From Desulfuromonas acetoxidans DSM 684 (lineage in GTDB: Bacteria > Desulfobacterota > Desulfuromonadia > Desulfuromonadales > Desulfuromonadaceae): a stretch of DNA of 64,000 bases. The stretch spans positions 1-64,000 of the forward strand of contig NZ_AAEW02000010.1 in assembly GCF_000167355.1 (NCBI RefSeq), read 5' to 3'. Below the pieces are notes generated by a model. That model saw nothing but the letters and a program-made list of their open reading frames with translations, was not told the DNA's origin and made no database searches. The translations under genes and the position numbers were made by a program. Shown here piece by piece: positions 8,145-31,126 of the stretch. Numbering within the stretch: the first letter of the stretch is position 1; each line of letters opens with the position of its first letter.

Positions 8145-8164
8145 GAAAGGACAGGAACGGACTC

Positions 8165-9958: not shown

Positions 9959-10327
9959 ATGTTTGAACTGGAAAGCAAAACCATTCAAAACAGTGACGGC
10001 GCAGCCTATCAACTGCTGATTGTCAGCGGTGATCTGGGTATCGCCACCATCGGCCAACTTAAAAACGATCTGCTCAGTGCCCTGCAGAGCCATGACCACG
10101 TGATTCTCGACATGGCCGCCGTCACCGATGTCGATTACAGCGTGTTGCAGCTCTTATGCAGCGCCAACAAATACGCTCAGAAGTATGGCAAACACTTCCA
10201 GATCAAAGGTCAATGCACCGAAGCCTTTATCGATCGTGCTCAATCCCTCGGCTTCTTTCGCGATCAGGCCTGCAACGAGGCCGAAGATCCGATGAAATGC
10301 CTGTGGATACCGGAAAACCTCACCTAA
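9959..10327 (+). CDS. STAS domain protein (anti-sigma-antagonist-like)
   Basis: A 122-residue protein that is one STAS domain, recognised by the LLSALQSHDHVILDMAAV and TDVDYSVLQLLCSANKYA segments. In SpoIIAA-like proteins a Ser in the motif D(x)SG is phosphorylated by a kinase partner; here the position reads DYSV, so Ser may still be available. In chemotaxis operons such proteins are sometimes found beside CheA, but their role is poorly defined. It lies 27 bases upstream of cheA and uses the same C-ending codons. No matching anti-sigma kinase is encoded nearby. Confidence 0.8.
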   Translation: MFELESKTIQNSDGAAYQLLIVSGDLGIATIGQLKNDLLSALQSHDHVILDMAAVTDVDYSVLQLLCSANKYAQKYGKHFQIKGQCTEAFIDRAQSLGFFRDQACNEAEDPMKCLWIPENLT

Positions 10328-13071: not shown

Positions 13072-15105
13072 ATGCGCTGGAAAGATTTAAAACTCAACGG
13101 TAAGTTTTTTGTCGGTTTCGGTCTGGTTCTGGCGATGATGCTGGGAGTGGGATTGTGGAGTATCTCGGGGATCAGCGACATTGTCAGTAATGCCAGTGAA
13201 GTTATTGATGGCAACAAGCTTAAAGGGGAGATGGTTCAGCGGGAAGTTGATCACCTCAATTGGGCTAATGAGGTGAACTCGTTGTTAACCGATGATCATG
13301 TGACCGAATTGACTGTTCAGACCGATCCGCATAAATGTGCTTTTGGCAAGTGGTATTACGGCGAGGGGCGTAAACAGGCCGAAGAGTTGGTTCCTGAATT
13401 GCGTGCTTTGCTGGCAGAAATCGAGCAATACCATAATGAACTCCACCATTCCGCCAAGAGAATCGGCGATACATTCCGTCAGGCCGATGTGACACTGCCA
13501 AAATTTTTGGCGGAGAAAGAGGTTGATCACCTGGTGTGGGCCAACACCATTCTTAAGTATTTTTCCAGTGAACAGAACGAATTAAGTGTACAGGAAAATC
13601 CGGAATTATGTGGGTTAGGTAAATTCCTTTATGGCGTCCAAGGTAAAGAAGTTGCCAAGAGTGATCCGGAACTGGCGCATTTGCTTGAAGCGATCAAGGA
13701 ACCCCACGCTCGTTTGCACCAGTCGGCAAAACAGATCAAGCAGTTACCCAAGAAGGCCGCCCAAGAGGTGTTTGAAAAGGAAACGCTTGTTGCCTTGAAG
13801 GAAACACAGGCTATTCTGTCTAAAATAAAAGATCGGGCCGATGAACGTGTGTCTAGTATGAATGCGGCAAAGAAAATTTACGCGACGGAAACGGTTCCCA
13901 ATCTTAAGCAGGTGCAAAAAATTCTCGGCGAGGTTTCGCACACAACGGATGAGCACATTATGACCGATGAAGAGATGCTCCTCGCGGCATCCAACACGCG
14001 TCAGGGGGTTATCTGGAGCCTGACCGCCGCATTTCCCATTGCGATCCTGCTTGCCTTTGTTATTGCCCGCGGCATCATTGGTCCTTTACAGAAGGGGATC
14101 GCTTTTGCTCAGGAGATTGCTCAGGGTAATCTTGAAGCCACCATTGATGTGGAACAAAAAGATGAAGTGGGTAAAATGGCCGACGCTTTGCGCGAGATGA
14201 TTGAGAAGCTCAAAACGATCGTTGGCGATGTGCGAGCGGCCTCCAATAATGTGGCTTCCGGTAGTCAGGAACTGTCTGCCAGCTCTGAAGAGATGAGTCA
14301 GGGTGCGACCGAGCAAGCGGCTGCGGCCGAAGAAGCTTCGTCGTCGATGGAAGAGATGGCGGCGAACATCAAGCAGAACGCTGATAATGCCATGCAGACC
14401 GAGAAGATTGCCCTTAAATCCTCTCAGGACGCTCAGGGTGGTGGCAAGGCGGTCGAAGAGACGGTCAAGGCGATGAAAGATATTGCCGAGAAGATCTCCA
14501 TCATTGAAGAAATTGCCCGCCAGACAAACTTGCTGGCGCTCAACGCGGCGATTGAGGCGGCACGTGCCGGTGAACATGGTAAGGGCTTTGCCGTTGTTGC
14601 CTCGGAAGTGCGCAAATTGGCCGAACGTAGCCAGAGTGCTGCCGCCGAGATCAGCGACTTGTCATCTAGCAGTGTGGAAGTGGCTGAAACCGCTGGTGAA
14701 ATGCTGGCCAAGATGGTTCCGGATATTCAGCGCACTGCCGAGTTGGTGCAGGAGATTGCCGCAGCCAGTAAAGAGCAGGATACCGGAGCCGACCAAGTTA
14801 ACAAAGCGATTCAGCAGCTTGATCAGGTGATTCAGCAGAATGCTGCTGCTGCCGAAGAGATGGCGTCTACCTCTGAGGAACTCAATGCTCAGGCCGCTCA
14901 GTTGCAGGATACCATCTCGTTCTTCAAGCTGGATTCTGCGGGAGCCAAACAGCTTAACAGCCCCAAAGCCCCCCCTAAGGCTCCCAAGCTTAAAGAAACT
15001 CTTCCGGGCAAAAAAGTCGCAGCGGCCAGTCCGGGTAACAGTGGCTTGATGCTTGATATGGGCGCGGGGAAAGATTCTTTGGACAGTGAATTTGAAGAAT
15101 ATTGA
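13072..15105 (+). CDS. Methyl-accepting chemotaxis protein with tandem N-terminal CZB domains
   Basis: A 677-residue membrane receptor. TM1 spans about 11-31 and TM2 about 305-328 ([20 protein letters not shown]), so about 270 residues face the periplasm. That part contains two chemoreceptor zinc-binding units with conserved ligands His61, Cys89, His121, His125 and His153, Cys180, His212, His216. CZB domains bind zinc and respond to oxidants such as hypochlorite in known cytoplasmic cases; here they are outside and doubled. HAMP (about 330-380) and the signalling coil (tip [20 protein letters not shown]) follow. No obvious CheR-docking pentapeptide ends the protein. The ribosome site GCAGGAGG is strong. 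Codon use returns to the genome norm here. Confidence 0.92.
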
Positions 15106-15179: not shown

Positions 15180-16010
15180 ATGAGTCTGACCCAGCGTGAT
15201 TTTGACCGTCTCAGCCGTTATATTTATCAAGAGCTTGGCATCACATTGTCAGACTCCAAGAGATCTATGCTGATGGGGCGTTTGACTAAACGTGTCAGGG
15301 CTTTGAAGCTCTCTTCCATCAGCGAATATTGTGATTTTATTTTTACCGAAGAGGGGCAAAAGTTTGAACGGGTTCACCTGTTCGATGTGATCACGACCAA
15401 TAAAACGGATTTTTTCCGCGAAGCGAATCACTTTGATTATCTGACCCAGACAATTCTTCCCTCTTGGCAAAGGGAACTGCCTCGACGTCGTTCATTCAAA
15501 ATTTGGAGTGCCGGCTGTTCCTCCGGGGAAGAGCCCTATACCATGTCCATGGTATTAGCAGATTATGCCGAGAAGCAACCTGCGGGGGACTTTAATTACG
15601 AGATTATTGCCACAGATATCTCCACCAAAGTTCTCGATCATGCCAAAAAGGCCATTTATCATGCAGATCGGATTGTGCCGGTGCCGATGGAGATGCGTTC
15701 GCGCTATTTGTTGCGCAGCAAGGATCGCAATAATCCACTGGTGCGTATTGCCCCCGTGCTGCGTAAGAAAATCCGTTTCGGGCGTCTGAATTTCATGGAT
15801 GCGGATTTCAGTCTGCCGCACCCGATGGATGTCATTTTCTGCCGCAATGTCATTATTTATTTTGATAAAGAGACGCAGGAGCGTCTGGTCAGGAAGTTCT
15901 GTCGCAAGTTACAGCCGGGAGGTTTTCTGTTTCTCGGTCATTCAGAGTCGTTACATGGCTTTGATCTCCCTTTGACTCAGGTGGCTCCGACGGTGTATCG
16001 CGTTGACTGA
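15180..16010 (+). CDS. cheR: Chemotaxis protein methyltransferase CheR
   Basis: A 276-residue SAM-dependent glutamate methyltransferase that adapts the MCPs. The all-alpha N-terminal domain (about 1-75) carries MSLTQRDFDRLSRYIYQE; the catalytic Rossmann domain has FKIWSAGCSSGEEPYTM (SAM-binding) and PMDVIFCRNVIIYFD. Length and layout are normal and the gene looks intact. What follows is only a decayed cheD-cheB remnant, so the opposing methylesterase is missing from this operon. It could be supplied elsewhere in the genome. Confidence 0.93.
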   Translation: MSLTQRDFDRLSRYIYQELGITLSDSKRSMLMGRLTKRVRALKLSSISEYCDFIFTEEGQKFERVHLFDVITTNKTDFFREANHFDYLTQTILPSWQRELPRRRSFKIWSAGCSSGEEPYTMSMVLADYAEKQPAGDFNYEIIATDISTKVLDHAKKAIYHADRIVPVPMEMRSRYLLRSKDRNNPLVRIAPVLRKKIRFGRLNFMDADFSLPHPMDVIFCRNVIIYFDKETQERLVRKFCRKLQPGGFLFLGHSESLHGFDLPLTQVAPTVYRVD

Positions 16011-16055
16011 CCTCCTATCCACGCACGACTCTCTCTGAAACCCGGAGAACTTTGA

Positions 16056-16462
<407 letters not shown>

Positions 16463-16529: not shown

Positions 16530-19394
16530 ATGAAAATCCGCAGCCTGTTTATGCTGGTCGCACTGCTGGCTTGTATGATTTCCATGTCGGCAACGCTTGT
16601 TTTTTTTAATGGCAAAGTCAAAGAAAACATCCGTGGCCGCCTTACGGCACAGGCGCGAAATATCTGTTCTCTGTTATCCCTCTATCAAAACCAATGTCGT
16701 TCAAGTCTTTTGACGGATCAGGACCCGCCGTCTGTCCATAGAAAAAATTTGCTGGGCGAATCGGCCACTAAACTGTCTCAAACCGGCCAGGGTGATATTC
16801 ATATCCGCTATGCCGCACGTTTTCCGCAAAATATCCAGTACCAGGCGCTGGATTCAGACCTTTCCCTGATCCATCTGTTTAAACACAATCGGCAAATGGA
16901 TGAATATAGTGAAATGGTTGAGTTTCCGACGCCAATGTTTCGCTATGTTCAGCCGATTTTTTACCAGGAAACCTGTTTTAGTTGTCATCAGAAAACACAA
17001 GGTTCTTCTCTGCAGGATGTTGCGCCGGCATTGCTGATCGTTGAGATTCCCAATGTGTCATTCAGTGATGAACAAAAAAGCAAATTTCTCGCCTTGGCTG
17101 CGATCAATGTTGTCGGATATTTCATGACATTTGTCGTGCTGGTGGCGTTATTGCAGCGCACTGTCCTTAAACGGCTCAAGGGACTGAAATCGGCAGCCCT
17201 GTGCCTGGAACAAGGAGACTACGATCAGGCGATCCTGACCTATCGGGAGAATGCACAAAACGAGTTCGATGTTCTGGCCAATGCTTTTTATGAAATGAAA
17301 AACGCTGTGAAGGGCCGGGAAGAGAGGTTGAGGCAAAAAAGGCAACAAATCTACAGCATGTTTCATGTACATCAATCGATTATGTTTCTGGTTGATGTTG
17401 AAAATTATCACGTTTTGGATGCCAATGTCGCGGCAGAGCGGTTTTACGGCATGTCGGCTCAGGCGCTTAAAGCCAAATGTTTTTACGGCTTGCATGGCCT
17501 TGACCGCCAGGAATTGGCTGAGCTGTTAACCGTTTGTCTCAATGGCCGACAAGAGTTTATTGAATTGCCCTATCAGGATGTTGGAGAACTGCGCTGCCTG
17601 GAGGTGCGGTTGAGTCCTGTCGATGTGGATCAAAAAGCCTGCTTGTTTCTCATTATTCACGACATTACGGCCCAGAAGAATGCCCGTCAGCAGATCCAAA
17701 AAGAACATGAGTTTTTCCAGACGGTGATTGACAATATGGTGGATCCTGTTCTGGTTCTGGATACCTCTCGCCACATTAAGAAAGCTAATCGTGCTGCCCT
17801 GGCTCTGGCAGACGGTAAACTCGATGATCCTGAAGAGGTGTGCTGTTATGAGGCTTTCCAGCGTGGCAGTCTGCCGTGTGATTGTCGATCCAAGTCGTGT
17901 CCCATGCATACGGTTTTGAAAACAGGAAAACCCGCATCCATTATCGAGCACATCGATTCGAAGAATAAAATCTATGAAATTCAGGCGGCTCCCTACTTTG
18001 ATGAGAGTGGCAACATGTTGGGGGTGATTGAATCGTTTCGTGATATCACCAAACGCCTTGAGGTTGAAAACAGCCTGATTGAACAGGAACGAAAAATTTA
18101 CGATTTAACCCATTACGATAATCTGACCGGCCTGCCCAATCGTTCTGTCTTATTGGACCGGGTCAACCAAGCGATTTATCATGCGTTAATAAAAAATACC
18201 CACTTGGCTCTGATCAGCCTGACTTTGGATCGTTTCAAAAAAATCAACGAGACGTTGGGGCACCATGTGGGGGATTGCCTGTTGCAGGAGGTTGCTCAGC
18301 GCTTGAACACGTTGGTTCCGCAAGGTCAGACGGTGGCAAAAGATTCCGGGAGTCAATTTTTTATCCTGTTGGAGGAAGTGCCTCAGCAGGAGGATGTGGT
18401 CGATCTGGCCGACGTGGTGTTGAAAGGAATTAAACAAAGTTTCCATGCCAATGGTCATGAGTTGATCCCTTCTTGCAGTCTCGGCATCGCTTTTTACCCG
18501 GAACAGGCTGAGAACTCCACCGAGCTTTTGGCACGGGCGGATGTAGCTATGCGGACCTCCAAGGATGATATGGGGGGCGGAGCTGTCACTGTGTATGACC
18601 CGAAATATGGCGAGATTGCCCCGCAGAGCTTACGTATGGAAGCCGACCTCAAACATGCCATAGAGAATGATAAACTCCATATTCACTATCAGCCGCAATT
18701 TAACCTTGAAAATGACGTCTTAGTTGGGTTCGAAGCTCTGGTTCGCTGGAATCACCCTGCAGAAGGGCCTGTTTCTCCCGGCGAGTTTATTCCCCTTGCC
18801 GAAGAAACCGGCCTGATTCACTCCCTGGGCCGGTGGGTGTTACGCCAGGTCTGTCAGCAGATTCACAGTTGGGAGCAGGCCGGAATTTCGGTTGTGCCTG
18901 TTGCCGTGAATGTTTCCAGTTTGCAGATGAAAAAGAATAACTTTGTTCACATTCTCGAAGAATGTCTGAATGAATTTCAAATCACTGCGCAACTGATTGA
19001 ATTGGAAATTACCGAAAGTGCCGTCATGGATCGCCTGGAAAAGTCCATGGAGCTTTTAAGCGCGATCAGGGGGCTGGGAGTCAAGTTAGCCATTGACGAT
19101 TTTGGCACCGGATATTCCTCTTTGAGTTATTTGAAAAGCTTTCCTTTTTCAAAATTGAAAATAGATCGCTCTTTTGTCATGGATCTGGAAAATGATGAAA
19201 ATGATGCCGCCATTATTACAGCGATTATTTCCATGGCAAAAAGCCTTGGCTTGAAAACGATTGCCGAAGGTGTTGAGACGGAGCTGCAAAAACAATTTCT
19301 GATCAAGCATGGCTGTGACGAAGTGCAGGGCTTCCTGATGAGCCGTCCACTGCCTGTCGAGGCGATTGAAACAAACTATCTCTCGTCGAAATAA
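16530..19394 (+). CDS. Heme-sensor PAS-GGDEF(degenerate)-EAL protein, probable c-di-GMP phosphodiesterase
   Basis: A 954-residue inner-membrane protein. TM1 is about 5-25; a periplasmic DUF3365/Tll0287-like domain follows with the c-type heme motif Cys149-x-x-Cys152-His153 (CFSCH), then TM2 (about 180-202), HAMP, two PAS domains (about 275-395 and 405-515), a GGDEF domain (about 520-690) and an EAL domain (about 700-945). The GGDEF signature is lost (KDSGSQFF near 605), so no cyclase activity is expected. EAL residues are all present: Glu735 in EALVRW, NVSSLQ, ITES, DDFGTGYSS, and AEGVET. It likely degrades c-di-GMP in response to heme redox or gas binding. The start at 16530 follows GGAAGTGGG. 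Confidence 0.88.
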   Translation: MKIRSLFMLVALLACMISMSATLVFFNGKVKENIRGRLTAQARNICSLLSLYQNQCRSSLLTDQDPPSVHRKNLLGESATKLSQTGQGDIHIRYAARFPQNIQYQALDSDLSLIHLFKHNRQMDEYSEMVEFPTPMFRYVQPIFYQETCFSCHQKTQGSSLQDVAPALLIVEIPNVSFSDEQKSKFLALAAINVVGYFMTFVVLVALLQRTVLKRLKGLKSAALCLEQGDYDQAILTYRENAQNEFDVLANAFYEMKNAVKGREERLRQKRQQIYSMFHVHQSIMFLVDVENYHVLDANVAAERFYGMSAQALKAKCFYGLHGLDRQELAELLTVCLNGRQEFIELPYQDVGELRCLEVRLSPVDVDQKACLFLIIHDITAQKNARQQIQKEHEFFQTVIDNMVDPVLVLDTSRHIKKANRAALALADGKLDDPEEVCCYEAFQRGSLPCDCRSKSCPMHTVLKTGKPASIIEHIDSKNKIYEIQAAPYFDESGNMLGVIESFRDITKRLEVENSLIEQERKIYDLTHYDNLTGLPNRSVLLDRVNQAIYHALIKNTHLALISLTLDRFKKINETLGHHVGDCLLQEVAQRLNTLVPQGQTVAKDSGSQFFILLEEVPQQEDVVDLADVVLKGIKQSFHANGHELIPSCSLGIAFYPEQAENSTELLARADVAMRTSKDDMGGGAVTVYDPKYGEIAPQSLRMEADLKHAIENDKLHIHYQPQFNLENDVLVGFEALVRWNHPAEGPVSPGEFIPLAEETGLIHSLGRWVLRQVCQQIHSWEQAGISVVPVAVNVSSLQMKKNNFVHILEECLNEFQITAQLIELEITESAVMDRLEKSMELLSAIRGLGVKLAIDDFGTGYSSLSYLKSFPFSKLKIDRSFVMDLENDENDAAIITAIISMAKSLGLKTIAEGVETELQKQFLIKHGCDEVQGFLMSRPLPVEAIETNYLSSK

Positions 19395-19419
19395 CACATG
19401 TTTTAATGGAATGATATAT

Positions 19420-20526
19420 ATGGACGTAATCGTCTGGAATGAAAATTTTGAAACAGGTCTTGATGATGTTGACCAGCAACATCGTCACCTGGTTGAGATC
19501 ACCAATCGTTTTGGCCGCATTCTTTTCGACAAGAATGCGCTTTGCAAAGAGATGGAAGAGATTTTTGCTGAGCTGGTTTCGTATACACAGTATCATTTTT
19601 CCGAAGAGGAAAATCTGATGGAAACCATCGGCATTGATGAGCGTCATGTTGACTATCATAAAAATGAACATGCCAGCTTTTTGCAGAGTGTCCTTCATCT
19701 TTACGGTGAGAGTAAACTGGGGCGGGACACGGGAAAGCCGTTATTTGAATTTTTGATGAACTGGCTTGTCTACCACATCCTCGGCTCGGACCGAAGTTTT
19801 GGCGAGCAGTGTACTCTGATTGAACAAGGCAACAACCCGCAGCAAGCGTATGAACATTGTGAACATCAGGCGGATGGGGCAAAAGGGGTGTTGCTCGAAG
19901 CTCTCAATCGCTTGTTTCACCAGGTGCTCAATCGCAACCATGAATTGCGTGACCTGAATCAAACCCTTGAACGGCGGGTTGATGAAAGAACTCAAGAGCT
20001 GGTTGAGGCCAATCAACAGTTGGGCGAATTGGCTATGACGGATTTTTTAACCGGGCTGTATAACCGTCGTCATGCCCTGTTGACTCTCGAAGCACTTTGG
20101 GACGAAGCGCAACCAGAAGGGTTGGATTTGGCGTGTATCATAATTGACACCGATGGTTTTAAAGAGATTAATGATACCTACGGACACGATGTTGGAGATC
20201 AAGTGCTGTGCCTGCTGGCCCGTCAGCTCAAAGAGATGGTACGTACCGATGATATTGTGTGTCGAATGGGAGGGGATGAATTTCTGATCATCTGTCCGAA
20301 GACGGACATTGTAGGGGCAATGCACGTCGGGGAATTATTGCATCAGGCGATTAACGAGTTACAGTATCCACTTGGGAACGATTTACGTCAGGCCAGTACC
20401 AGTATTGGAGTGGCTGCGATGATGGACAATGTGCAAACACTTGAAGCTCTGCTCGTGGCGGCTGACAAAGGGGTTTATGAAGCCAAAAAAGCTGGAAAGA
20501 ACTGTGTGAAAAGTCTTCAGGCGTAA
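19420..20526 (+). CDS. Bacteriohemerythrin-GGDEF diguanylate cyclase
   Basis: A 368-residue soluble protein. Residues 1-135 form a bacteriohemerythrin with di-iron ligands in DVDQQHRHLVE, YHFSEEE, YHKNEHASF and the HILGSDRSF helix, which bind oxygen or sense redox. After a long coiled coil (about 150-205), the GGDEF domain (about 210-365) has an intact RMGGDEF (GGDEF at 284-288) and an RTDD I-site five residues upstream, so it should make c-di-GMP under product inhibition. It starts 25 bases after the previous stop; the longer reading from 19366 would overlap that gene. Di-iron input and cyclase output in one chain imply oxygen-controlled c-di-GMP. Confidence 0.9.
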   Translation: MDVIVWNENFETGLDDVDQQHRHLVEITNRFGRILFDKNALCKEMEEIFAELVSYTQYHFSEEENLMETIGIDERHVDYHKNEHASFLQSVLHLYGESKLGRDTGKPLFEFLMNWLVYHILGSDRSFGEQCTLIEQGNNPQQAYEHCEHQADGAKGVLLEALNRLFHQVLNRNHELRDLNQTLERRVDERTQELVEANQQLGELAMTDFLTGLYNRRHALLTLEALWDEAQPEGLDLACIIIDTDGFKEINDTYGHDVGDQVLCLLARQLKEMVRTDDIVCRMGGDEFLIICPKTDIVGAMHVGELLHQAINELQYPLGNDLRQASTSIGVAAMMDNVQTLEALLVAADKGVYEAKKAGKNCVKSLQA

Positions 20527-20555
20527 ACTGACGGCGCAAGGGATTGGAGCATTGT

Positions 20556-23342
20556 ATGACCCACAGAACATCGACAAAGGGGTTGTGGTTCACCCTGTTT
20601 GTTCTATGGTCGGGACTTATTTTTTATGGCGCCTGGTCAGAATACACAAGTCAGCAACAGCTTATTATCGATCTGGCAAAGGCCGAAGCCGCAGGTAGCT
20701 TTAACAAGGATGTCGTTTATCGGCGCTGGGCTGCTAAGCAGGGTGGGCTTTATGTTTCCGTCAGTGATCATACGCCACCCAACCCCCACCTTGATCATGT
20801 TCCCCATCGAGACGTGGTTACTCGCGAGGGTCAACATCTGACTCTGGTCAATCCTGCCTATATGACTCGCCAGGTTCATGAACTCGGGGCTGTTCAATAT
20901 GGTGCAAAAGGACATATCACCAGCCTGAATCCTCTGCGTCCCGAAAATACGCCCGATCCTTGGGAGAGGGACGCTCTAGAGCAGATGGAAACGAGTCCTG
21001 AAGAGGTTGTCTCTGTTCAACTTCTGGATGGAAAAGAATATCTGCGTCTGATTCGTCCGATGTATACCGAGTTGATGTGTTTGAAATGCCATAGCAGTCA
21101 GGGCTATGAGGTCGGAGACGTGCGCGGTGGGGTGAGTGTCTCAATTCCTCTTGCGCCTTACCGTGAGGCGCAATTGAACCTGTTTCGCAAAGATATGACA
21201 CATCATGCCTTGCTGTGGGCGCTTGGCGTTGCCGGTTTACTTTTTCTCCGCCATCTTGTTCAAAGCCGCCTGCGCCGCGAAGACGAAGTGCAGCAGGAGA
21301 TTGCTCTTTCAGAAGAAAAATACCGTGCTCTGTTTAGAGATTCTCTGATTGGAATTGCTATTGCCGATTGTACCAGTGGCAGAATCATTGAATGTAACAA
21401 AAAGTTGGCTCATCTGGTGGAGCGAACGCCGGAGGAGTTGATTGGTAAACCTCAGGATATTCTTCATCCCAAGTTTGAAAAAGACCAGGGCTCTGCTGTT
21501 ACCCAAACGTTCAAAAAGCATCAGGATGAAGCACATGGCGAGGTGCTTGGATCTTATTTGATTACAAAGAGTGGTCAACTCAAAGATGTTGAGATTCAGG
21601 GTGGTACTGTGTCGTTTGGTAATCAAAATTATCAGTTTGGCCTGTTTCTCGATGTCACTGAACGGAATAAGTTTGAACAGCAGAACCACCGCTTGCTACA
21701 GGCGATAGACCAAAGCCCGATTTGCATCTTAATGACCACCTGCGACGGCAGGCCGGTTTATCTCAATCAGTTTTTCAAGGAAAAAACCGGTTATTCTTTG
21801 GATGAATGCTCTCATCCAGACAACCCTATATACCAATTTATACAACAACGGATCCCCGCACAGTGTGGATCAAACGATGGCCGAAACTATGATGAACCCT
21901 GGTTAGAGGAGTTGGAAATCCGCTCAAAAGATGGTGGAATTCATTGGGAACGTATCTCCATCTCTTTGGTTTATGATCTAAAAGGTCAATGTTCGCACCT
22001 GATTGTCATTGGTGAAGATATCACTGAAGAGAAGAAGAATGCGCAGCACTTTGAATTTTTGGCAACCCATGACAGCTTAACGGGATTGGCAAATCGGTTA
22101 TTGCTTCATGATCGACTGGATCAGGCCATCTTAAAAGCCAAGCGGGTTCATGGGACTGTGTTCTTGATCTTGCTGGATGTTGATCGTTTTAAAATGATTA
22201 ATGACAGCATGGGCCATGACAATGGTGACAGGCTCCTACAACTGATCGCCGACCGCCTTTTGAAGGTTGTACGTGAGTCGGATACGGTTGTCCGGTTGGG
22301 CGGGGATGAATTTGTCGTTCTGCTCAGCGAGGTTGAAACGCTGGATGACGCACTGTGTGCAGCAGAAGCGATTCACCGTGAGCTTTCCGAACCTTTTACT
22401 GTGAGCGAGCGACAAATCCCTTTAACTGTCAGCGCTGGAATCTGCAGTTATCCTGACCATGGGATGAGTTCTTTGGAGTTGTTGCGTCATGCGGATGTGG
22501 CCATGTACAAGGCCAAGGAAACGCACAGTCAGACCTGTATCTTTGAATCATCAATGGATGGTTTGGTTCTGGAATCTCTGGAACTGGAAGCGGAACTGCG
22601 CCAAGCCATTGTCAAAAACGAATTGCACGTGTACTACCAGCCTAAGGTGGATGCCGGTAGTGAGAAAATCGTTGGATTTGAAGCACTGTTGCGTTGGGTT
22701 CACTCGGATAGAGGTATGATTTCCCCCGGTGTGTTTATTCCTCTGGCCGAACAGACCGGATTGATTCACGAAATTGGCTTATGGGTGATTGAGGATGTTT
22801 GTCGTCAATTGAGGCAATGGGCTGATCAGGACTATGCCATTGTTCCGGTCGCGGTCAATCTTTCGGCAAAACAGTTTCAGTCGGTGGATCTTGCTAAGCA
22901 GGTTGCAACGATCCTGGATTCTTATCACATTGATTCAAGCTGGTTCGAGTTTGAATTGACGGAAAGTATGATTATGCAGAATCCGTTGTCGTCGATTCGC
23001 ATTATGAAGGAGTTGAAAGATCTGGGACTTCGTCTTGCCGTCGATGATTTTGGGACGGGGTATTCGTCTTTAAATTATTTACGGCGCTTACCGTTGGATT
23101 ATTTGAAAATCGACCGTTCTTTTATTGATGATGTAACACAGGATTTAAGTGCTGATGCCGTGGCGACGAGTATTATCGGTATTGCCAGGAGCCTTGGTAT
23201 GCAGACCATTGCAGAAGGGGTGGAAACGGCTGAACAATTGATGTTTTTGAAAGACAATAACTGTGATTTTATTCAGGGCTTTTATTTCTACCGGCCTATG
23301 CCGGTTGATGATGCGACCAGCTTGCTGGAGCGGTCCTGCTGA
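20556..23342 (+). CDS. Heme-sensor PAS-GGDEF-EAL protein
   Basis: A 928-residue membrane protein built like the protein two genes upstream. It has TM1 (about 7-27), a periplasmic DUF3365-type domain with Cys175-x-x-Cys178-His179 (CLKCH), TM2 (about 220-240), two PAS domains (about 258-375 and 380-500), GGDEF (about 505-670) and EAL (about 680-925). Here GGDEF is intact (582-586) with an RESD I-site, and EAL is intact (Glu709 in EALLRW, DDFGTGYSS, AEGVET), so it may be bifunctional or switch between activities. The ATG at 20556 has GGAG 7 bases upstream; a TTG at 20544 is less likely. Only 29 bases separate it from the previous gene. Confidence 0.9.
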   Translation: MTHRTSTKGLWFTLFVLWSGLIFYGAWSEYTSQQQLIIDLAKAEAAGSFNKDVVYRRWAAKQGGLYVSVSDHTPPNPHLDHVPHRDVVTREGQHLTLVNPAYMTRQVHELGAVQYGAKGHITSLNPLRPENTPDPWERDALEQMETSPEEVVSVQLLDGKEYLRLIRPMYTELMCLKCHSSQGYEVGDVRGGVSVSIPLAPYREAQLNLFRKDMTHHALLWALGVAGLLFLRHLVQSRLRREDEVQQEIALSEEKYRALFRDSLIGIAIADCTSGRIIECNKKLAHLVERTPEELIGKPQDILHPKFEKDQGSAVTQTFKKHQDEAHGEVLGSYLITKSGQLKDVEIQGGTVSFGNQNYQFGLFLDVTERNKFEQQNHRLLQAIDQSPICILMTTCDGRPVYLNQFFKEKTGYSLDECSHPDNPIYQFIQQRIPAQCGSNDGRNYDEPWLEELEIRSKDGGIHWERISISLVYDLKGQCSHLIVIGEDITEEKKNAQHFEFLATHDSLTGLANRLLLHDRLDQAILKAKRVHGTVFLILLDVDRFKMINDSMGHDNGDRLLQLIADRLLKVVRESDTVVRLGGDEFVVLLSEVETLDDALCAAEAIHRELSEPFTVSERQIPLTVSAGICSYPDHGMSSLELLRHADVAMYKAKETHSQTCIFESSMDGLVLESLELEAELRQAIVKNELHVYYQPKVDAGSEKIVGFEALLRWVHSDRGMISPGVFIPLAEQTGLIHEIGLWVIEDVCRQLRQWADQDYAIVPVAVNLSAKQFQSVDLAKQVATILDSYHIDSSWFEFELTESMIMQNPLSSIRIMKELKDLGLRLAVDDFGTGYSSLNYLRRLPLDYLKIDRSFIDDVTQDLSADAVATSIIGIARSLGMQTIAEGVETAEQLMFLKDNNCDFIQGFYFYRPMPVDDATSLLERSC

Positions 23343-23374
23343 ATGCTTTTTCCAGATGCCCGAGGGGGGTCATT

Positions 23375-24646
23375 TTGCTTCAGACTGGAAAAAATAAAAA
23401 GATACTTGCCTTAACCGGTGTTTTTCTCGGCATCGCCATGGTGGCGTTGATCGTGCTGTTTCACACGGTGATCCACAAAAGCCAGATGCTCAAGGCACAG
23501 GAGGCCGTTTATAACCTGCTGCAGGTGCAATTGGCTATTCGCGAGTATGTGCATGATACGATTCGTCCGGAGATCTACCGTCTTCAGGACCAAGGGGTCA
23601 TGCAAGCGGATTATTTTTCTCCGGAACTGATGTCCCGCTCATATATTTCTCGCGAAGTTTTGAAAACTTTTCTTGATTTGCAGGGCAAAGAGTTTTCGGC
23701 GTCTATTTTTCGCTATGCTTCCCGGTCCCCCCTTAACCTCGAAAATCAGGCAACCGCTTTTGAAGAACAATTGCTGAGCAAGTTTGAGAACGACGAGATC
23801 AGCGAATATTGCGAAGAAATTGTTCAAAATGGTCAGGCCGCTCTTTTTTATGCGGTTCCGCTTGGGCGTTTTGATTCAAGCTGCCTGCTTTGCCACAGTG
23901 ATCCCGCCATTGCTCCGCCCTCTTTAGTTGCCCGTTACGGCGACAGTCACGGTTTTTATCGCCAGGAGGGGCAGTTATCCGGGTTGATGTCGATCAGTAT
24001 TCCCCTGGCCAGATTCAATGCGCAATGTGTAAAAACTTCAACCGTCGTCGCTTTTTTGACCGCCCTTGGCTTTGTTGCTGTTTATTTTATGATTCGGGCA
24101 CTGTTGGTCAAAAAGGATGGTCAGGATTTGCTCCTCGAACAGCAAAACAGAGAGTTGGATCGTTTATCGACGACAGATCCGTTGACCGGCCTGTGGAATC
24201 GCCTGCGTTTTAACCATGAAACTCCGCGCTATATTGCACAGGCGCAAAGCAGAAAAGAGTCGTTGGCCATGGCCGTGATCGATATTGATCATTTTAAAAA
24301 GATCAATGACACTTTCGGCCATAGTATTGGCGATGAGGTCCTGAAAATTTTCAGTGCCTATTTGCAGGAAAAATGTCGCAAAACCGACTTTCTTGCGCGG
24401 CTCGGTGGCGAAGAGTTTGTGATTTTGACCCCCGCTATCACCAAAACAGAGCTTGAGCATTTTTGCCAGCGTTTACTTGAGGGGATGATTGTCGTTGAAT
24501 ACCCCCATAATCTTAAGTTGACTGCAAGTGTGGGTGTTGCCCTTTATCAGGATGGCGAAGACCAGTCTCTTTTCTTCAGTCGGGCTGATCGGGCCATGTA
24601 TGAGTCGAAAGAAAAGGGCCGTTACTGCTACACCATAGCCGAATAG
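23375..24646 (+). CDS. Heme-sensor GGDEF diguanylate cyclase
   Basis: A 423-residue membrane protein. TM1 (about 9-30), a periplasmic DUF3365-type domain with Cys170-x-x-Cys173-His174 (CLLCH), TM2 (about 222-242), a short coil, then a GGDEF domain (about 255-420) with GGEEF at 344-348 and an RKTD I-site. It should synthesise c-di-GMP under control of the heme domain; attaching the heme needs export and the cytochrome c maturation machinery. The start is a TTG at 23375 supported by CGAGGGGGG. It is the third gene of the block with a CxxCH periplasmic sensor but the only one of them without EAL. Confidence 0.88.
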   Translation: MLQTGKNKKILALTGVFLGIAMVALIVLFHTVIHKSQMLKAQEAVYNLLQVQLAIREYVHDTIRPEIYRLQDQGVMQADYFSPELMSRSYISREVLKTFLDLQGKEFSASIFRYASRSPLNLENQATAFEEQLLSKFENDEISEYCEEIVQNGQAALFYAVPLGRFDSSCLLCHSDPAIAPPSLVARYGDSHGFYRQEGQLSGLMSISIPLARFNAQCVKTSTVVAFLTALGFVAVYFMIRALLVKKDGQDLLLEQQNRELDRLSTTDPLTGLWNRLRFNHETPRYIAQAQSRKESLAMAVIDIDHFKKINDTFGHSIGDEVLKIFSAYLQEKCRKTDFLARLGGEEFVILTPAITKTELEHFCQRLLEGMIVVEYPHNLKLTASVGVALYQDGEDQSLFFSRADRAMYESKEKGRYCYTIAE

Positions 24647-24746
24647 GGGGCGTGTTTTGTGCTGTTGCCCATCCCTGGGGCGGCGAGCCTTTTGCCGGTA
24701 GTCTGTTGGTGCCGGAATGGAAGAACCATAAACTGGGGGCTGATGA

Positions 24747-25604
24747 ATGAAAATCCGGTTATTGATTGTGATGTTTTTCGTGTTGGCTGTTCCTTTGTGC
24801 TCGTTCGCAATGACTGCCAAGCCGTTGGTGTTTGTCGTACATCCTTTTTTGTCTGCATTAGAGCTGCATGAGCGTTTTCAGCCTCTCGTTGATGAACTTT
24901 CTGTGCGTATCGGTCATGAGGTCGTTTTACAGGTTTCAAAAGATTATCCTACCCATGTTGACACATTATGCTCTGGACGGGCGGATATCGCTTTTCTAGG
25001 GCCCTCGATCTATGTCAACGCATTTGACCGCAATCCCGATATTAAACTATTGGGCGTGCTCAACGGCCGGGTCCCGATGTTGCGGGGTGTTATTGTGGTT
25101 AGAGCAGATAGCCCTCTGAAAAATCTGTCCGATCTCAACCGGCACTCGATTGCGTTTGTTTCGCGCGAATCGACCATGGGATTCAAGCTCGCTTGCGCCG
25201 AATTGCATAAAGTGGGGATTTCTCTTGAAAGCCTGAGTTCATATGCGTTTTTGGGGAATCATGAAAATGTGGTTTTTTCGGTGCTGGCGGGAAAGTTTGA
25301 TGCCGGCTCAGTCAAATATGAAGCCTATGAAAAAATGAGCACCAAAGGGCTGCGAATTCTGGCGGTTCAGCCGAAAGTGGCTGACCATGCTTTTGTGGCC
25401 TCCTCTTCGCTTGAAGAGGAGGTTGCCCTGAAGATCAAAGAGGTTTTGTTGCATCTCAACGACACAAAGGCAGGTCGAAAAATCCTGCACAAGTTGCGCT
25501 CTGATGCCGTTGCTATCCGGCCTGTTCACAATGAGGACTATGATCCCTTACGATTGTGTACGGATTGTTTTAACCAGATAAATGTGGATGACAATGAAGA
25601 GTAA
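24747..25604 (+). CDS. PhnD/PtxB-like periplasmic substrate-binding protein
   Basis: A 285-residue exported protein. Residues 1-22 form a signal peptide (hydrophobic core LLIVMFFVLAVPLC, cleavage near SFA). The mature part matches PhnD-type binding proteins (YPTHVDTLCSGRADIAFLGP, then IAFVSRESTMGFKLACAEL), which bind phosphonate, phosphite or other small anions. No ABC permease or ATPase genes are nearby. Instead its last codons overlap the start of a membrane PAS-GGDEF-EAL gene, so it probably acts as a sensor subunit that delivers ligand information to that protein (inference). The ligand is unknown. Confidence 0.85.
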   Translation: MKIRLLIVMFFVLAVPLCSFAMTAKPLVFVVHPFLSALELHERFQPLVDELSVRIGHEVVLQVSKDYPTHVDTLCSGRADIAFLGPSIYVNAFDRNPDIKLLGVLNGRVPMLRGVIVVRADSPLKNLSDLNRHSIAFVSRESTMGFKLACAELHKVGISLESLSSYAFLGNHENVVFSVLAGKFDAGSVKYEAYEKMSTKGLRILAVQPKVADHAFVASSSLEEEVALKIKEVLLHLNDTKAGRKILHKLRSDAVAIRPVHNEDYDPLRLCTDCFNQINVDDNEE

Positions 25605-28545
25605 TAGAGCTGGCTTAAAAAGCGTGATGACCTACCGGCGTGTGGCATTAATGCTGGCTGTTTTGTTTTGCCTGTTTATCGGGCTGGCAGGTCTTGTGTC
25701 ATCCATGGCACGCGAAAAGCAATTGGAACAGGCTCTGCAACAGAGTTTCAACCTGGAACAGGAACTGATCACTTCGATGCTGAGCGAAGCATTGCTGCGC
25801 AGTGACTATGTTCAGGTTCGTAAAATGCTCCATGATTATTTTGAAAAGCATCCTGAATATATCGCAATAACCCTGACATCACCCAATGCGTTTGAAATTT
25901 TTTCAGCCAACCGGCAAGGGGATTCAGAGAAAGAATTTCGCAGTGCAAAAACGCAGATCCTGGTCAAAAATGTCAATGAAGGGATACTGGAGCTCAAAAA
26001 ACAGGACCAGGTCAAGACTCTGGAGTGGCTGAATCATGCCGGAACCGTTGTTGTGGTCGTGACTGTTCCGCTGCTTTTTTTGGCGCTCCTTGTGTGGGTG
26101 ATCGTTAAAAAGCTCGGTCTCGATCCGCTCTATTTTGAAGCGGAGAGTCAGGCCACATCCTATGAAGCCCTTTTTAAGCAAAGCAAAGAAGCGATACTGA
26201 TCCTTTCTGAATCCGGTGACATTGAAAAAATGAATCCTGAGGCTTTAAACCTTTTCCATATCCAGGCGGAACGTTTGCCGATCAATCTTGAAAATCTTCA
26301 TATGCCGGAAAGTTGTCTCTCGGTAAAAGAGTTTGTGAATACGGCCCGTGAGAAAGGTTTCTGTAGTGATGTGGTTCATTTGCCTGCCAGGGATTTATAT
26401 CTTGAGGTTGTTGCCAGTCTTATGACGGTGCAGGGGGCGCAAAAGATTCAGTTTCTTCTCCACGATGTTTCTGATGTGCATCGTTATAAAGAAAAACTTG
26501 AGAGTTTAAGTGTTGAACTGAAGAACAGCCTGAGAACCTACCAGGACCTTTTTAACACTGTTGCTGACGGTTTGGTTGTGCGTGATGTTAACGGTCATTT
26601 TTTGATGGCTAATCAGGCATTTTTATCTTTACTTGGCTACCGGGAAGAGGAGCTGATTGGCACGCACTGCACCAAAGTTTGCAAAGATAAAAATTGTGAG
26701 CGTTTTGCAGAAATTCTGCAGGGCCGAACCATTGTGTTTAAAAGCACGCACACAACAAGGAATGGTGAAAAAATTCCTGTGGAAGTCAACAGTACCTTGG
26801 TCTCTTTCAAAGGGGACACCGCTGTCTTGAGTTCGGTGCGGGATATCCGTGAGCGTTTGGAAAAAGAGGAACAGCTCAAACAGCTCATGACCGTGGTCGA
26901 AAACAGCAATGACGGGGTTTTAGTTACTGACGTGACCGGTAGTATTATTGCTGTTAACAGGGCGTTCTGCAGGATTAGTGGTTACGATGAAGAGGATGTT
27001 CTGGGTAAAACTCCGCGCATGTTTCAATCCGGGATCCATGATAAGTCCTTTTATCAAGCCATGTGGAATGAACTGGCTCAATACGGTCAATGGCAGGGAG
27101 AGATCTGGAATCGCAACAAAGATGGGGAGAGCTATCCGGAAATGTTGTCGATTCGTGCCCTGACCGACGATGCCGGGACTGTTTATCGCTATGTCGGTAT
27201 CTTCGCGGATCTGAGCAATGAAAAGGCGTTGGAGAAAAAAGTGCTTCATCTGGCTCAAACAGATCCACTGACCGGCATGGCCAACCGAGTTCTGTTTCGT
27301 GATCGACTCCAGCAGGCGATCAAGCATGCCCAGCGCCATGTGACGACTCTTGCTGTTTATTCTTTGGGGTTGGACCATTTTAAAAAAATCAATGACAGTC
27401 TTGGGCATGTTATTGGCGACAAGATCCTTATCGAAGTTGCCAAACGGCTAAAAAAATGTCTCAGAGGTGAAGACTCTTTCTGCCGCCACAGCGGCGATGA
27501 ATTTACGTTGATGACCTATGGTGGCGCTGATGCCATGGATGCCTCTACAGTTGCGACTAAGATTCTCAACGCGATTCGACTTCCCTTTATCGTTGATGGG
27601 TCAGAACTCTTTTTGACCGCAAGTATCGGCATTGCCCTTTTTCCCAGAGACAGCAGTGACGATCTTGGACTCATGCAAAAAGCCGAAAACGCCATGCACC
27701 AATCCAAAAAAAATGGTCGTGATTGTTTCTGCTATTTTTCACGGGAGTTTTCTCAACAGGCGGAACAAGCGCTCCATCTAACCAACATGTTGCATAAAGC
27801 GCTTGAAAAAGAGGAGCTGCAGCTCTATTACCAGCCTCAAGTTGATCTTGAAAGCAGAGCAATTATTGCTGCAGAAGCCCTGCTTCGTTGGCACAATGAC
27901 GAAATGGGCTGGATTTCCCCTGCGCAAATGATCCCGATTGCGGAAGAGAGCGGCTTGATCCTTCCGATTGGGCAGTGGGTGCTTGAGCAGGTTGCGCAAC
28001 AGATTCGCAGTCACTATGAAACAAACAAAGAGTGGCTGCCGATTGCCGTGAACATTTCTGTGAAACAATTTATCACCGATGATTTTATTGAAATGGTCAT
28101 GAAGATTATTGACGCGCACGCTATTCCTGCCAGATGTCTGGAACTTGAATTAACGGAAAGTTTGATGTTGGCCGATGTCGAGCTGGCGGTGAAAAAGATG
28201 GGTGAACTGCATACGTTGGGAGTGCCTCTGGCGCTGGATGATTTTGGTACCGGCTATACGTCGCTCGCTTACCTGAAACGATTCCCTGTCAATAAGATAA
28301 AGCTCGACCGTGCCTTTGTTACGGATATTCATCACAGCAAAGGTGACGCCGCATTGGCAAAATCATTGGTGGCTTTTACTCGCGAAATGGAATTCGAACT
28401 GATTGCCGAAGGGATTGAGGAAGAAATTCAGGGGGAATATCTTAAAGCGATGGGCTTCCGTTATGGCCAGGGATACCTCTATTCTCGGCCATTGCCCAAA
28501 GAAGAGTTCTCGAAGTTATTTACGAATCAAATGCTTACTGCATAA
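25594..28545 (+). CDS. Membrane PAS-GGDEF(degenerate)-EAL protein coupled to a binding protein
   Basis: About 983 residues. TM1 (about 16-36), a small periplasmic segment (about 37-145), TM2 (about 148-170), three PAS domains (about 190-300, 310-425, 430-550), GGDEF (about 555-720) and EAL (about 730-975). The GGDEF motif is HSGDEF (632-637), so cyclase activity is doubtful; it may bind GTP as a regulator. EAL is intact (Glu761 in EALLRW, NISVKQF, ELTES, DDFGTGYTS, AEGIEEE). The start is uncertain among in-frame ATGs at 25582, 25588 and 25594, all overlapping the stop of the PhnD-like gene, which implies coupled translation. The small periplasmic part could dock that binding protein. It ends the c-di-GMP block. 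Confidence 0.87.
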   Translation: MKSNRAGLKSVMTYRRVALMLAVLFCLFIGLAGLVSSMAREKQLEQALQQSFNLEQELITSMLSEALLRSDYVQVRKMLHDYFEKHPEYIAITLTSPNAFEIFSANRQGDSEKEFRSAKTQILVKNVNEGILELKKQDQVKTLEWLNHAGTVVVVVTVPLLFLALLVWVIVKKLGLDPLYFEAESQATSYEALFKQSKEAILILSESGDIEKMNPEALNLFHIQAERLPINLENLHMPESCLSVKEFVNTAREKGFCSDVVHLPARDLYLEVVASLMTVQGAQKIQFLLHDVSDVHRYKEKLESLSVELKNSLRTYQDLFNTVADGLVVRDVNGHFLMANQAFLSLLGYREEELIGTHCTKVCKDKNCERFAEILQGRTIVFKSTHTTRNGEKIPVEVNSTLVSFKGDTAVLSSVRDIRERLEKEEQLKQLMTVVENSNDGVLVTDVTGSIIAVNRAFCRISGYDEEDVLGKTPRMFQSGIHDKSFYQAMWNELAQYGQWQGEIWNRNKDGESYPEMLSIRALTDDAGTVYRYVGIFADLSNEKALEKKVLHLAQTDPLTGMANRVLFRDRLQQAIKHAQRHVTTLAVYSLGLDHFKKINDSLGHVIGDKILIEVAKRLKKCLRGEDSFCRHSGDEFTLMTYGGADAMDASTVATKILNAIRLPFIVDGSELFLTASIGIALFPRDSSDDLGLMQKAENAMHQSKKNGRDCFCYFSREFSQQAEQALHLTNMLHKALEKEELQLYYQPQVDLESRAIIAAEALLRWHNDEMGWISPAQMIPIAEESGLILPIGQWVLEQVAQQIRSHYETNKEWLPIAVNISVKQFITDDFIEMVMKIIDAHAIPARCLELELTESLMLADVELAVKKMGELHTLGVPLALDDFGTGYTSLAYLKRFPVNKIKLDRAFVTDIHHSKGDAALAKSLVAFTREMEFELIAEGIEEEIQGEYLKAMGFRYGQGYLYSRPLPKEEFSKLFTNQMLTA

Positions 28546-28576: not shown

Positions 28577-28650
28577 ACAATAAAAAACCCGATACAACTC
28601 AATGTATCGGGTTTTATCTTCATTTGGTGCCGAAGGCGAGACTCGAACTC
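28577..28650. repeat. Left copy of 74-bp direct repeat (attachment site of the retron island)
   Basis: These 74 bases are identical to 30992-31065. They contain the last 26 bases of a tRNA-Leu including CCA (28625-28650, minus strand) and its terminator. Past 28650 the sequence no longer matches the tRNA, so this is a displaced tRNA 3' end, the classic mark of site-specific integration into a tRNA gene. The repeat defines a 2,415-bp unit. Confidence 0.9.
28582..28616 (-). terminator. Copied tRNA-Leu terminator within the left repeat
   Basis: AAACCCGATACA pairs with TGTATCGGGTTT, followed on the minus strand by a T-rich tail. It now ends transcription of the retron reverse transcriptase gene from the right, and may also stop the EAL gene from the left. 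Confidence 0.8.
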
Positions 28651-28754: not shown

Positions 28755-30512
28755 TTATGAATTGACAAATTTCTTATGATATTTAATTACCTTTGCAATA
28801 CGCAATAGTAATGGAATAAAACCATCGAAATTGATTTCCTTATGTTTGTCTTTGACGACTTTGAGTGAAAAAGTATTTTTACCATATTTTGTTGTGCTAT
28901 CGTATTCGTTGCTTGGTTCAAATTCCCTTCCATCAATTTTATAGCTTAGAGCTTTATCGTCAAATAAATTCTCCATCATACTATCATTACCATTATCACG
29001 AGGGGTTAAGATGAGATATAAGTTTGACACTATATGTATAAAATCAGAATTTCTGATACTGTTGTTCTTATTATCTTCTTCAATCTTTGGAAATATTATT
29101 TTCTGTGAAGAGAGCCAACCGATTAGTCCATTTGGGCCATTGTCGTTGTCAAGCACTAGTATGACAGGGTTTTGTGGTGTTTTTACGTTGTAATATTTTA
29201 GGCTTTTCTTATATCTCTGTGAGAAGAACTTTAAATAATTCCCACCACCATATAGGTCTAGAAGATAACGTGTTCTTTTTGTGTAATCAAAAAGACTGAC
29301 AGGCAGTTCTAACTGGTCATTGTCGTTTTTTGTCGGCTTTAGTTCATTGGAGGTGTTGGATTTGCTTTTTAACGCATATTTTATATAGATATTGTCTGTC
29401 TTTCCTTCAAATAAAAGTGTTGGTTTATTGTTAGCTATGAAATTCTTGTAGTAAAGGAAATCACTAAAAGTAGACTCTCTTCCATTTAGCTTTTCTCTGT
29501 GTGTATCAATGCCCCTATCTTTTAGAGAATATCTGTGATCTAGTGATTCTTTACAGTTGTAGTGGTTATATCTGTCAATTGAATCTATAAAATTAAGCTT
29601 TCCGTAAAGCTCATCTATTGTACCTTTTCTGAGATTTCCATTTTCATTTATTGTGAATTCTCCTGTCTTAAAGAGACTGTGACACATTGCTCGTGTTTCT
29701 CTCCAGTATTCTCTTTTAATGTTTATTTTTTTGTTTACAATTAGTCCTGTTACATCTTGACGTGAATCAGCGAACTGGAGTCTTGTCTTTTTGTGGTTAA
29801 TGTTAAATCCTGATCTTCTAATCTCTTCTTTTAGCTTTTTACTAAGGGTAACTTTTTTGTTTTCTATTGAAACAATTTTTTCTGAGAAATTTCTTTCTCT
29901 TGTTGAGAAAGTAATATCGTCAGCATATCTTGTGTAAACACTGCTGGATTTTTTTGCAAGCTGTGCAAGTCGAATATCTAGTGGATGGGTAATTAGGTTG
30001 GTGATTACAGGTGAACATGGACTTCCTTGCGGAAGAGTGTCGTTTAGACAAGCTATTTTTGCAATTATTGTTGCTATATTTTTATCTAGTTTAAAGTTGT
30101 TGTTTTTAAGAAAAAAACCTCTAACTCTTCCAAAATTAAAACTTCCGAAAAAATCTTCAAGATCAATATTTAATACATTTTTTTGTCTTACATGGAGCCG
30201 GGCATTTGTGATTATAGAGCGTTTTCGAACAAAGCCATGTGATAGTGTAGAAATTATTTCTTTTTCTTTGTTGATGTCGTCAATGCAGTCTAGAAGTAGA
30301 TTTGATAGTCGTGATTGAAGGTCTTTTAATTCTGCTGTTGGTGCATGAATCGTTCGGAATCCACCACTTCGTTTTGGGATTTGGAATTCCTCGTATTGGT
30401 CTTCTATTGGGGTGAGATATAAAGTGTTGGTTAAAAAAACGGTACTGACTTTTAATAACTTTGCAAAATCTTTTTTGTCTTTAGCGAGTCTGATTCTTTC
30501 AAGTTTAGTCAT
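28755..30512 (-). CDS. Retron reverse transcriptase fused to a TOPRIM domain (Ec67-like)
   Basis: A 585-residue protein. The first ~330 residues are a retron-type RT: NIDLEDFFGSF, LPQGSPCSPVITN, catalytic YADD (Tyr196, Asp198, Asp199) and the retron Y-region DVTGLIVN. The C-terminal ~225 residues carry a TOPRIM fold signature, LLFEGKTD with Glu369 and VLDNDNG with Asp455 and Asp457, as in topoisomerase/OLD-type nucleases. This fusion and length match the E. coli retron Ec67 (Eco2) protein as I remember it. Such retrons make msDNA and act as anti-phage abortive-infection systems, the fused domain being the effector. The matching msr-msd gene lies 31 bases upstream. The gene is much more AT-rich than its surroundings, in keeping with transfer. 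No standard ribosome site is visible. Confidence 0.92.
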   Translation of the reverse strand: MTKLERIRLAKDKKDFAKLLKVSTVFLTNTLYLTPIEDQYEEFQIPKRSGGFRTIHAPTAELKDLQSRLSNLLLDCIDDINKEKEIISTLSHGFVRKRSIITNARLHVRQKNVLNIDLEDFFGSFNFGRVRGFFLKNNNFKLDKNIATIIAKIACLNDTLPQGSPCSPVITNLITHPLDIRLAQLAKKSSSVYTRYADDITFSTRERNFSEKIVSIENKKVTLSKKLKEEIRRSGFNINHKKTRLQFADSRQDVTGLIVNKKINIKREYWRETRAMCHSLFKTGEFTINENGNLRKGTIDELYGKLNFIDSIDRYNHYNCKESLDHRYSLKDRGIDTHREKLNGRESTFSDFLYYKNFIANNKPTLLFEGKTDNIYIKYALKSKSNTSNELKPTKNDNDQLELPVSLFDYTKRTRYLLDLYGGGNYLKFFSQRYKKSLKYYNVKTPQNPVILVLDNDNGPNGLIGWLSSQKIIFPKIEEDNKNNSIRNSDFIHIVSNLYLILTPRDNGNDSMMENLFDDKALSYKIDGREFEPSNEYDSTTKYGKNTFSLKVVKDKHKEINFDGFIPLLLRIAKVIKYHKKFVNS

Positions 30513-30991: not shown

Positions 30992-31065
30992 ACAATAAAA
31001 AACCCGATACAACTCAATGTATCGGGTTTTATCTTCATTTGGTGCCGAAGGCGAGACTCGAACTC
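30992..31065. repeat. Right copy of 74-bp direct repeat, inside tRNA-Leu
   Basis: Identical to 28577-28650. It covers the 3' 26 bases of the intact tRNA-Leu and the terminator after it. In a tRNA-targeted insertion this half is usually supplied by the incoming element, restoring the tRNA, while the original 3' end is pushed to the far side. Confidence 0.9.
30997..31031 (-). terminator. Terminator of tRNA-Leu (and of the gap-to-secG unit)
   Basis: The stem AAACCCGATACA/TGTATCGGGTTT with a CTCAA-type loop and a T-run on the minus strand lies 9 bases beyond the tRNA CCA end. It is an exact copy of the one in the left repeat. Confidence 0.85.
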
Positions 31066-31126
31066 GCACGACCAATTGGCCACCACCCCCTCAAGATGGC
31101 GTGTCTACCAGTTCCACCACTTCGGC
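31040..31126 (-). tRNA. tRNA-Leu (anticodon GAG)
   Basis: Read on the minus strand the gene starts GCCGAAG and ends CTTCGGC plus ACCA, a perfect acceptor stem with encoded CCA. The anticodon arm CCATC/GGTGG encloses the loop TTGAGGG, giving anticodon GAG for CUC and CUU codons. A long variable arm and the T-arm GCGAGTTCGAGTCTCGC fit the class II tRNA-Leu type; total 87 nt. It lies downstream of secG, the same arrangement as secG-leuU in E. coli, where leuU is also the GAG isoacceptor. Its 3' end is the integration site of the retron island. Confidence 0.96.

Follow-up and report, generated by a model that had tools for sequence, protein, structure and literature searches.

The window, 64,000 nucleotides of Desulfuromonas acetoxidans DSM 684, belongs to a 3.82-Mb genome of 51 contigs (G000). 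Between positions 16530 and 28545 it contains six genes in a row, here called A to F, and open reading frames and Pfam matches place all six on the plus strand with the domains that had been predicted for them. Gene A (16530 to 19394) encodes a Tll0287-like domain (c-heme Cache) with PAS, GGDEF, and EAL domains, B (19411 to 20526) a hemerythrin-GGDEF cyclase, C (20556 to 23342) a second Tll0287-like protein with PAS, GGDEF, and EAL domains, and D (23375 to 24646) a Tll0287-like GGDEF cyclase. Gene E (24747 to 25604) encodes a periplasmic binding protein of the PhnD/PtxB/AioX type (Phosphonate-bd, PF12974), and F (25588 to 28545) encodes a membrane protein with PAS, GGDEF, and EAL domains. The list of open reading frames gives further-upstream starts for some of these genes. 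The spacings are 16 bp between A and B, 29 bp between B and C, and 32 bp between C and D; a gap of 100 bp separates D from E, and E and F overlap by 17 bp. A search of the window against Rfam gave no match at gathering scores.

At the GGDEF site, B and C carry GGDEF, D carries GGEEF, A carries SGSQF, and F carries SGDEF, which is kept in five of five sequences compared. RxxD I-sites were found in B, C, D, and F, and A, C, and F each have all of the EAL-domain motifs sought, with residues that we take to be catalytic. The expected mixture of cyclase and phosphodiesterase motifs was found, C having both motif sets intact. Genome-wide there are 83 GGDEF matches, two of which are pieces of one open reading frame, a number that in 3.82 Mb suggests a dense c-di-GMP network. 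Five of the 83 lie within 9.6 kb at A to F, a clustering that was reached in 0.44% of 20,000 trials of uniform random placement, a model that ignores operon structure.

Chemotaxis (che) genes lie upstream and share one direction with A to F. The first recognized gene of the operon encodes a soluble MCP-like protein (8090 to 9358; PF00015, MCPsignal) and is followed by genes for a CheY-like response regulator (9415 to 9780; PF00072), a STAS-domain protein (9959 to 10327; PF13466/PF01740), CheA (10355 to 12475; Hpt, H-kinase_dim, HATPase_c, and CheW domains), CheW (12533 to 13024; PF01584), a membrane MCP (13072 to 15105; HAMP, MCPsignal, and two zinc-binding CZB stretches, PF13682), and CheR (15180 to 16010; PF01739/PF03705), all on the plus strand. 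CheA, CheW, an MCP, and CheR are present together in the window, and the genome holds seven flagellin-type matches and five matches to the CheA dimerization domain. As a side observation, a c-di-GMP sensing review (PMC8846402) links CZB domains in some cyclases to the sensing of zinc and hypochlorite.

Scraps of two further chemotaxis genes lie in the 519 bp that separate cheR from A. A 5′ part of cheD (16026 to 16118, plus strand) was found by tblastn with residues 13 to 43 of the CheD protein of a relative, G007 (67.7% identity; E = 3.5e-10), and a 3′ part of cheB (16113 to 16459, plus strand) was found in two frames, covering residues 238 to 298 and 301 to 353. A CheB family search of the interval matched 16122 to 16313, with one TGA, and 16301 to 16444. 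The scraps stand in the order in which the genes are intact in G007, cheR-cheD-cheB, and look as if they had been joined by one deletion. No intact CheB gene of the operon's own was found in the window, which holds the broken scrap only, and four CheB genes without stops are present elsewhere in the genome. Because cheD and cheB are scraps, the receptors of this operon would be demethylated by CheB from elsewhere, or never.

Predicted heme Cache and hemerythrin sensors

Three of the six genes had been predicted to encode periplasmic CxxCH heme domains and one a hemerythrin cyclase, and Pfam and the invariance of CxxCH support this at the level of sequence. The Tll0287-like domain (PF11845; cut-off, 24.1 bits) scored 95.3 bits in D, 75.0 bits in C, and 27.0 bits in A, a weak match barely past the cut-off. 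CxxCH is invariant among the homologues compared for A (5 of 5), C (6 of 6), and D (4 of 4). In A and D, the motif is bracketed by two membrane segments predicted from hydropathy; in C, the second segment alone is above the hydropathy threshold. A PDB sequence search returned only Tll0287 (5b82) for the D sensor (E = 0.067), gave E values of 0.46 and 0.85 for the sensor part of C, and gave no match for that of A. An AlphaFold model of the D sensor, with three window sequences as input, had a poor mean pLDDT of 49. Compared with the sensor part of D, that of C is 28% identical and that of A 23%, and the description of the three as paralogous heme sensors with opposite outputs applies only loosely.

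A 2026 preprint (PMC12889525) names the domain sCache_heme (DUF3365/Tll0287, PF11845), gives CxxCH as conserved in at least 99%, and also mentions GGDEF/EAL fusions. The one signaling-type member tested there showed NO-sensor properties and formed no stable O2 complex. Geobacter members are argued in a review (PMC8396549) to be redox sensors in which Met is released on oxidation and paralogues differ in potential, GSU0582 and GSU0935 having −156 and −251 mV; the distal ligand of GSU0935 is Met60, and its CxxCH starts at Cys140. A, C, and D likewise match the family, keep CxxCH, and are fused to membrane-anchored signaling modules, but their output is GGDEF/EAL, whereas the Geobacter pair are MCPs. 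Moreover, three such sensors occur here in one operon, and A is a divergent member. As to the original label of an oxygen/redox-facing block, the argument made for Geobacter would fit redox, and the tested member is reported to have the properties of an NO sensor and not of an O2 sensor.

One reading of the locus is a redox-potential circuit in which the heme domains are tuned by their distal ligands to different potentials and feed, as the original prediction proposed, opposite outputs, A being a phosphodiesterase and D a cyclase by motif. All six C sequences compared have a Met corresponding to M103, which precedes the first Cys of CxxCH by 72 residues, and all four D sequences have one corresponding to M86, at a distance of 84 residues. 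A is without such an invariant Met and keeps C46, C56, and H70 instead. A Met in C and D but not in A would, as a guess, fit differing heme ligation, on the pattern of Met60 in GSU0935 and the differing Geobacter potentials. However, the N-terminal parts of the three sensors align poorly, and M103 and M86 fall in different columns in both a D-C profile alignment and a three-protein alignment, so any assignment of distal ligands in A, C, and D is a guess. The NO-sensor properties of the tested sCache_heme member also count against the circuit. A “redox-balanced” function of A to F would be plausible; the potential-tuned circuit itself we hold as a tentative possibility.

B carries PF01814 and PF00990, and its hemerythrin part matched bact_hemeryth at 94.5 bits (cut-off, 84). 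H24, H62, H79, H83, H87, and H122 are invariant in six of six sequences, and the window protein has HxxxE at 62 and HxxxxD at 122. Bhr-DGC of Vibrio cholerae, whose activity a hemerythrin review (PMC9388753) describes as tenfold higher in the diferrous state, has the same architecture of N-terminal hemerythrin and C-terminal GGDEF. B differs from it in being placed inside che operons, and its cyclase activity is predicted.

The binding protein and its GGDEF-EAL neighbor

The 15 PDB sequences listed for E at an E value of ≤0.001 are all of the phosphite/phosphonate type, AioX, or ArrX. PtxB, AioX, ArrX, and PhnD are among the matches, and E is nearer to PtxB, AioX, and ArrX. A polyamine-binding protein of the NspS kind was not found among these 15 matches. 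Three cysteines of E (C75, C271, and C274) are kept by all five homologues compared and could form a metal or thiol ligand site. AioX and ArrX (PDB 6esk and 6x6b) serve a histidine kinase as co-sensors of oxyanions. E is related to both in sequence, but the neighbor of E is a GGDEF-EAL protein.

By analogy, the closest precedent for E-F would be NspS-MbaA of Vibrio cholerae, in which the gene of the binding protein directly precedes that of MbaA, an SGDEF protein reported to make c-di-GMP (PMC8079147, PMC8967002). The E gene likewise lies immediately upstream of a membrane SGDEF- and EAL-type protein. The two pairs differ in that E is of the PhnD/PtxB/AioX kind and F has EAL where MbaA has EVL; the comparison of F with MbaA is one of their GGDEF/EAL domains. 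We considered whether F could be regarded as a safely dead cyclase and rejected this, as MbaA makes c-di-GMP with the same SGDEF motif in those reports. Of the two EAL proteins said to have broken GGDEF motifs, A, with SGSQF, would be a degrader by motif, and F is not safely described as broken.

A second operon and gene order in relatives

Contig C20 of the same genome carries a second operon with genes for a soluble MCP, a CheY-like protein, CheA, CheW, an MCP, CheR, CheB, A, B, C, CheD, a dCache-GGDEF cyclase, and CheV; cheB and cheD are retained there. The window and C20 copies are 88.9% identical for CheA, about 83.3 to 83.6% for CheR, 81.7% for B, 73.1% for A, 71.3 to 71.5% for C, and 68.5% for the soluble MCP. 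In the C20 operon, A-B-C is enclosed by che genes, with spacings of 50 bp from cheB to A, 11 bp from A to B, 21 bp from B to C, and 21 bp from C to cheD. Next to this operon (L009, 514 to 6709) lie genes for two multiheme cytochromes, a NapC/NirT-type cytochrome, a flavodiiron-like (ODP) protein, and a protoglobin-PsiE protein. Such neighbors would be in keeping with a theme of NO or O2.

The order A-B-C also occurs in G007, which carries both operon types. Its C20-like operon is 90.2% (A), 95.1% (B), and 87.9% (C) identical to that on C20, with the cyclase shortened to a 132-amino-acid open reading frame and no CheV after it. Its window-like operon reads cheR-cheD-cheB-B-C-D-E-F, and the trace of A in it is weak (34 bp; 79.4%; E = 0.001). 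In G008, the order is cheR-B-C-E-F, C and E being separated by a degraded remnant of D (342 bp; 74.9%; E = 1.8e-60), and a scrap of cheB or cheD was not found in the cheR-B gap. G002 has cheR-E-F. The matching operon thus lacks A in G007, A and D in G008, and all of A to D in G002. In other genera of the family, the order is cheR-cheD-cheB-E-F (G010) or cheR-cheB-E-F (G011).

The predicted pairing of a binding protein with an EAL protein was recovered well beyond the window. The family has 12 E loci at an identity of at least 39%, and 11 of them, all except G012:C180, were examined: the window, G008, two each in G007, G002, and G013, and one each in G010, G001, and G011. An F-type gene lies next to E in 10 of the 11, the sole exception being G013:C22; at the G007:137 kb locus, F is in two open reading frames. 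Che genes are in the same run as E-F at 6 of the 10 loci (the window, G007, G008, G002, G010, and G011). Four of the 11 E relatives listed from outside the family (31 to 32% identity) were fetched, and none has an F-type gene next to it.

The other genes are less regularly kept. B and C are adjacent at five loci in three genomes but were not seen together at five further B loci (G006, G009, G012, G030, and G013, fetched from eight with at least 39% identity; the G009 and G012 contigs end at B) or at the five best further C loci (G013, G011, G010, G055, and G006). B and C would not need each other, because they are found apart in other genomes. A search with the sensor part of A at an E value of ≤1e-20 matched 4 of the order's 136 genomes, all of one genus, and it matched 7 of 58 relatives at ≤1e-8, the three extra ones at 25 to 26% identity; a contig scan with A as the query gave two loci that match the GGDEF/EAL part only. 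Gene order, named originally as a check, is partly conserved: E-F is kept at most of the family loci examined and B-C at some, A is confined to one genus at the stricter threshold, and relatives have lost A, D, or all of A to D. The widest arrangement is E-F behind che genes, with A to D more variable, and we infer that E-F may be the older cargo.

Our preferred explanation, which we consider probable, is that A to F are c-di-GMP cargo forming the 3′ part of a chemotaxis operon. The idea of the block as a unit of its own was not upheld: A to F are instead the tail of a chemotaxis operon with a sister copy on C20, and an independent redox block as the primary unit was rejected on the second operon and the tie of E-F to cheR/cheB. 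Against the cargo explanation, the 519-bp scar and the 100-bp D-E gap could hold separate promoters, the heme domain of A is a marginal family match, and gene order is only partly conserved, with B and C also found apart from each other. A to F, or A-D and E-F, could thus have transcription of their own, the che genes being mere neighbors and chemotaxis and c-di-GMP not linked. A promoter-like match (10 of 12) lies at 16407 to 16434, in a scan that gave 20 matches against 15.1 expected, and 4 of the 10 E-F loci have no che gene among the neighbors shown. The C20 spacings, by contrast, put A-B-C between che genes, and the gene just before E-F is cheR in G002 and cheB in both G010 and G011. We consider separate transcription unlikely.

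The cargo explanation also has to be set against decay, in which the window operon is a redundant duplicate on its way out and its c-di-GMP genes are weakly constrained. The reduction of cheD and cheB to scraps and the loss of A, D, or all of A to D from the matching operons of relatives would agree with decay. However, the six cargo and remaining che open reading frames match their homologues in length, catalytic and cofactor motifs are retained, and G000 and G007 each retain two operons, which makes decay quite improbable. Least probable is that c-di-GMP took over adaptation, with A to F, controlled by redox, NO, or O2, giving the array feedback in place of demethylation after the loss of cheD and cheB.

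The two CheA proteins of G007 share 94.5% identity and are closer to one another than to their respective counterparts in the genome of the window, and the soluble MCP of the window-like operon of G007 is 67.5% identical to that of the window. Because of these values, we conclude from the sequence comparison that the two operons are not simply descended side by side. In a tree of C, the window groups with the matching operon of G007 (98/97), and G008 is placed beside the C20-type operon (88/92, at a node that is not starred); in a tree of cheR, the C20 operon and the first operon of G007 split from the other four (100/100); and a tree of B gave no resolution. With such trees, there may have been exchange or uneven loss between the two operons.

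Predicted signaling and the 3′ flank

In the cargo explanation, A, C, and D would have c-type heme bound covalently in the periplasm and respond to redox potential or nitric oxide, and B would read oxygen or redox in the cytoplasm via a diiron site. E would bind a small, perhaps oxyanion-like solute, with F controlled as in NspS-MbaA. By motif, B and D are predicted to make c-di-GMP and A to degrade it, and C and F may do both. These outputs would set the balance between motile and sessile states in step with the chemosensory array of the operon. The heme, hemerythrin, and binding-protein inputs would thereby probably let the cell set its “swim or settle” messenger by redox, nitric oxide, or oxygen.

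Chemosensory genes and c-di-GMP enzymes are also joined in the Wsp surface-sensing system, which works via a receiver domain at which WspR is phosphorylated by WspE, as described in the c-di-GMP sensing review cited above (PMC8846402). The Pfam matches of A to F at an E value of ≤0.001 include no receiver domain, and direct phosphorylation of the Wsp type was rejected for that reason. Because of the same absence, a link to CheA through co-expression and c-di-GMP would be more likely than one through phosphorylation.

A search of titles and abstract openings in the open-licence literature found no description of a che operon with heme, hemerythrin, and binding-protein c-di-GMP cargo. The parts are of known kinds and the assembly is unusual: a partly duplicated che operon with c-di-GMP cargo, here without CheB and CheD of its own. 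In a genome with so many GGDEF matches, the question arises how one c-di-GMP enzyme keeps its signal separate from the others, and A-B-C in two copies, with close relatives that are without single genes, offers a ready comparison for local action on motility. The same comparison suits the question of which cue, NO or redox potential, is read by c-heme Cache domains that are joined to GGDEF/EAL outputs.

Downstream of F, a terminator-like hairpin of 13 pairs (28584 to 28615, both strands) lies in a repeat shared with the flank of a tRNA-Leu gene. The scan for terminator-like sites gave 20 against 14.6 expected, and the hairpin is a consensus match only. Identical 74-bp direct repeats (28577 to 28650 and 30992 to 31065), which contain the hairpin and the 3′ end of tRNA-Leu (31040 to 31126), flank a retron-type reverse transcriptase gene of the RT-Toprim type I-C/Ec67 family (28755 to 30512, minus strand). 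The region resembles an element of about 2.4 kb inserted at a tRNA gene; the reverse transcriptase is its sole open reading frame of at least 120 amino acids, and no integrase-sized gene is present inside it. In G008 (L024, 8980 to 10238), about 0.9 kb lies between the end of F and tRNA-Leu, unlike the insert in the window and flanked by pieces of the same repeat, and the tRNA-Leu site behind F is perhaps an insertion hotspot.
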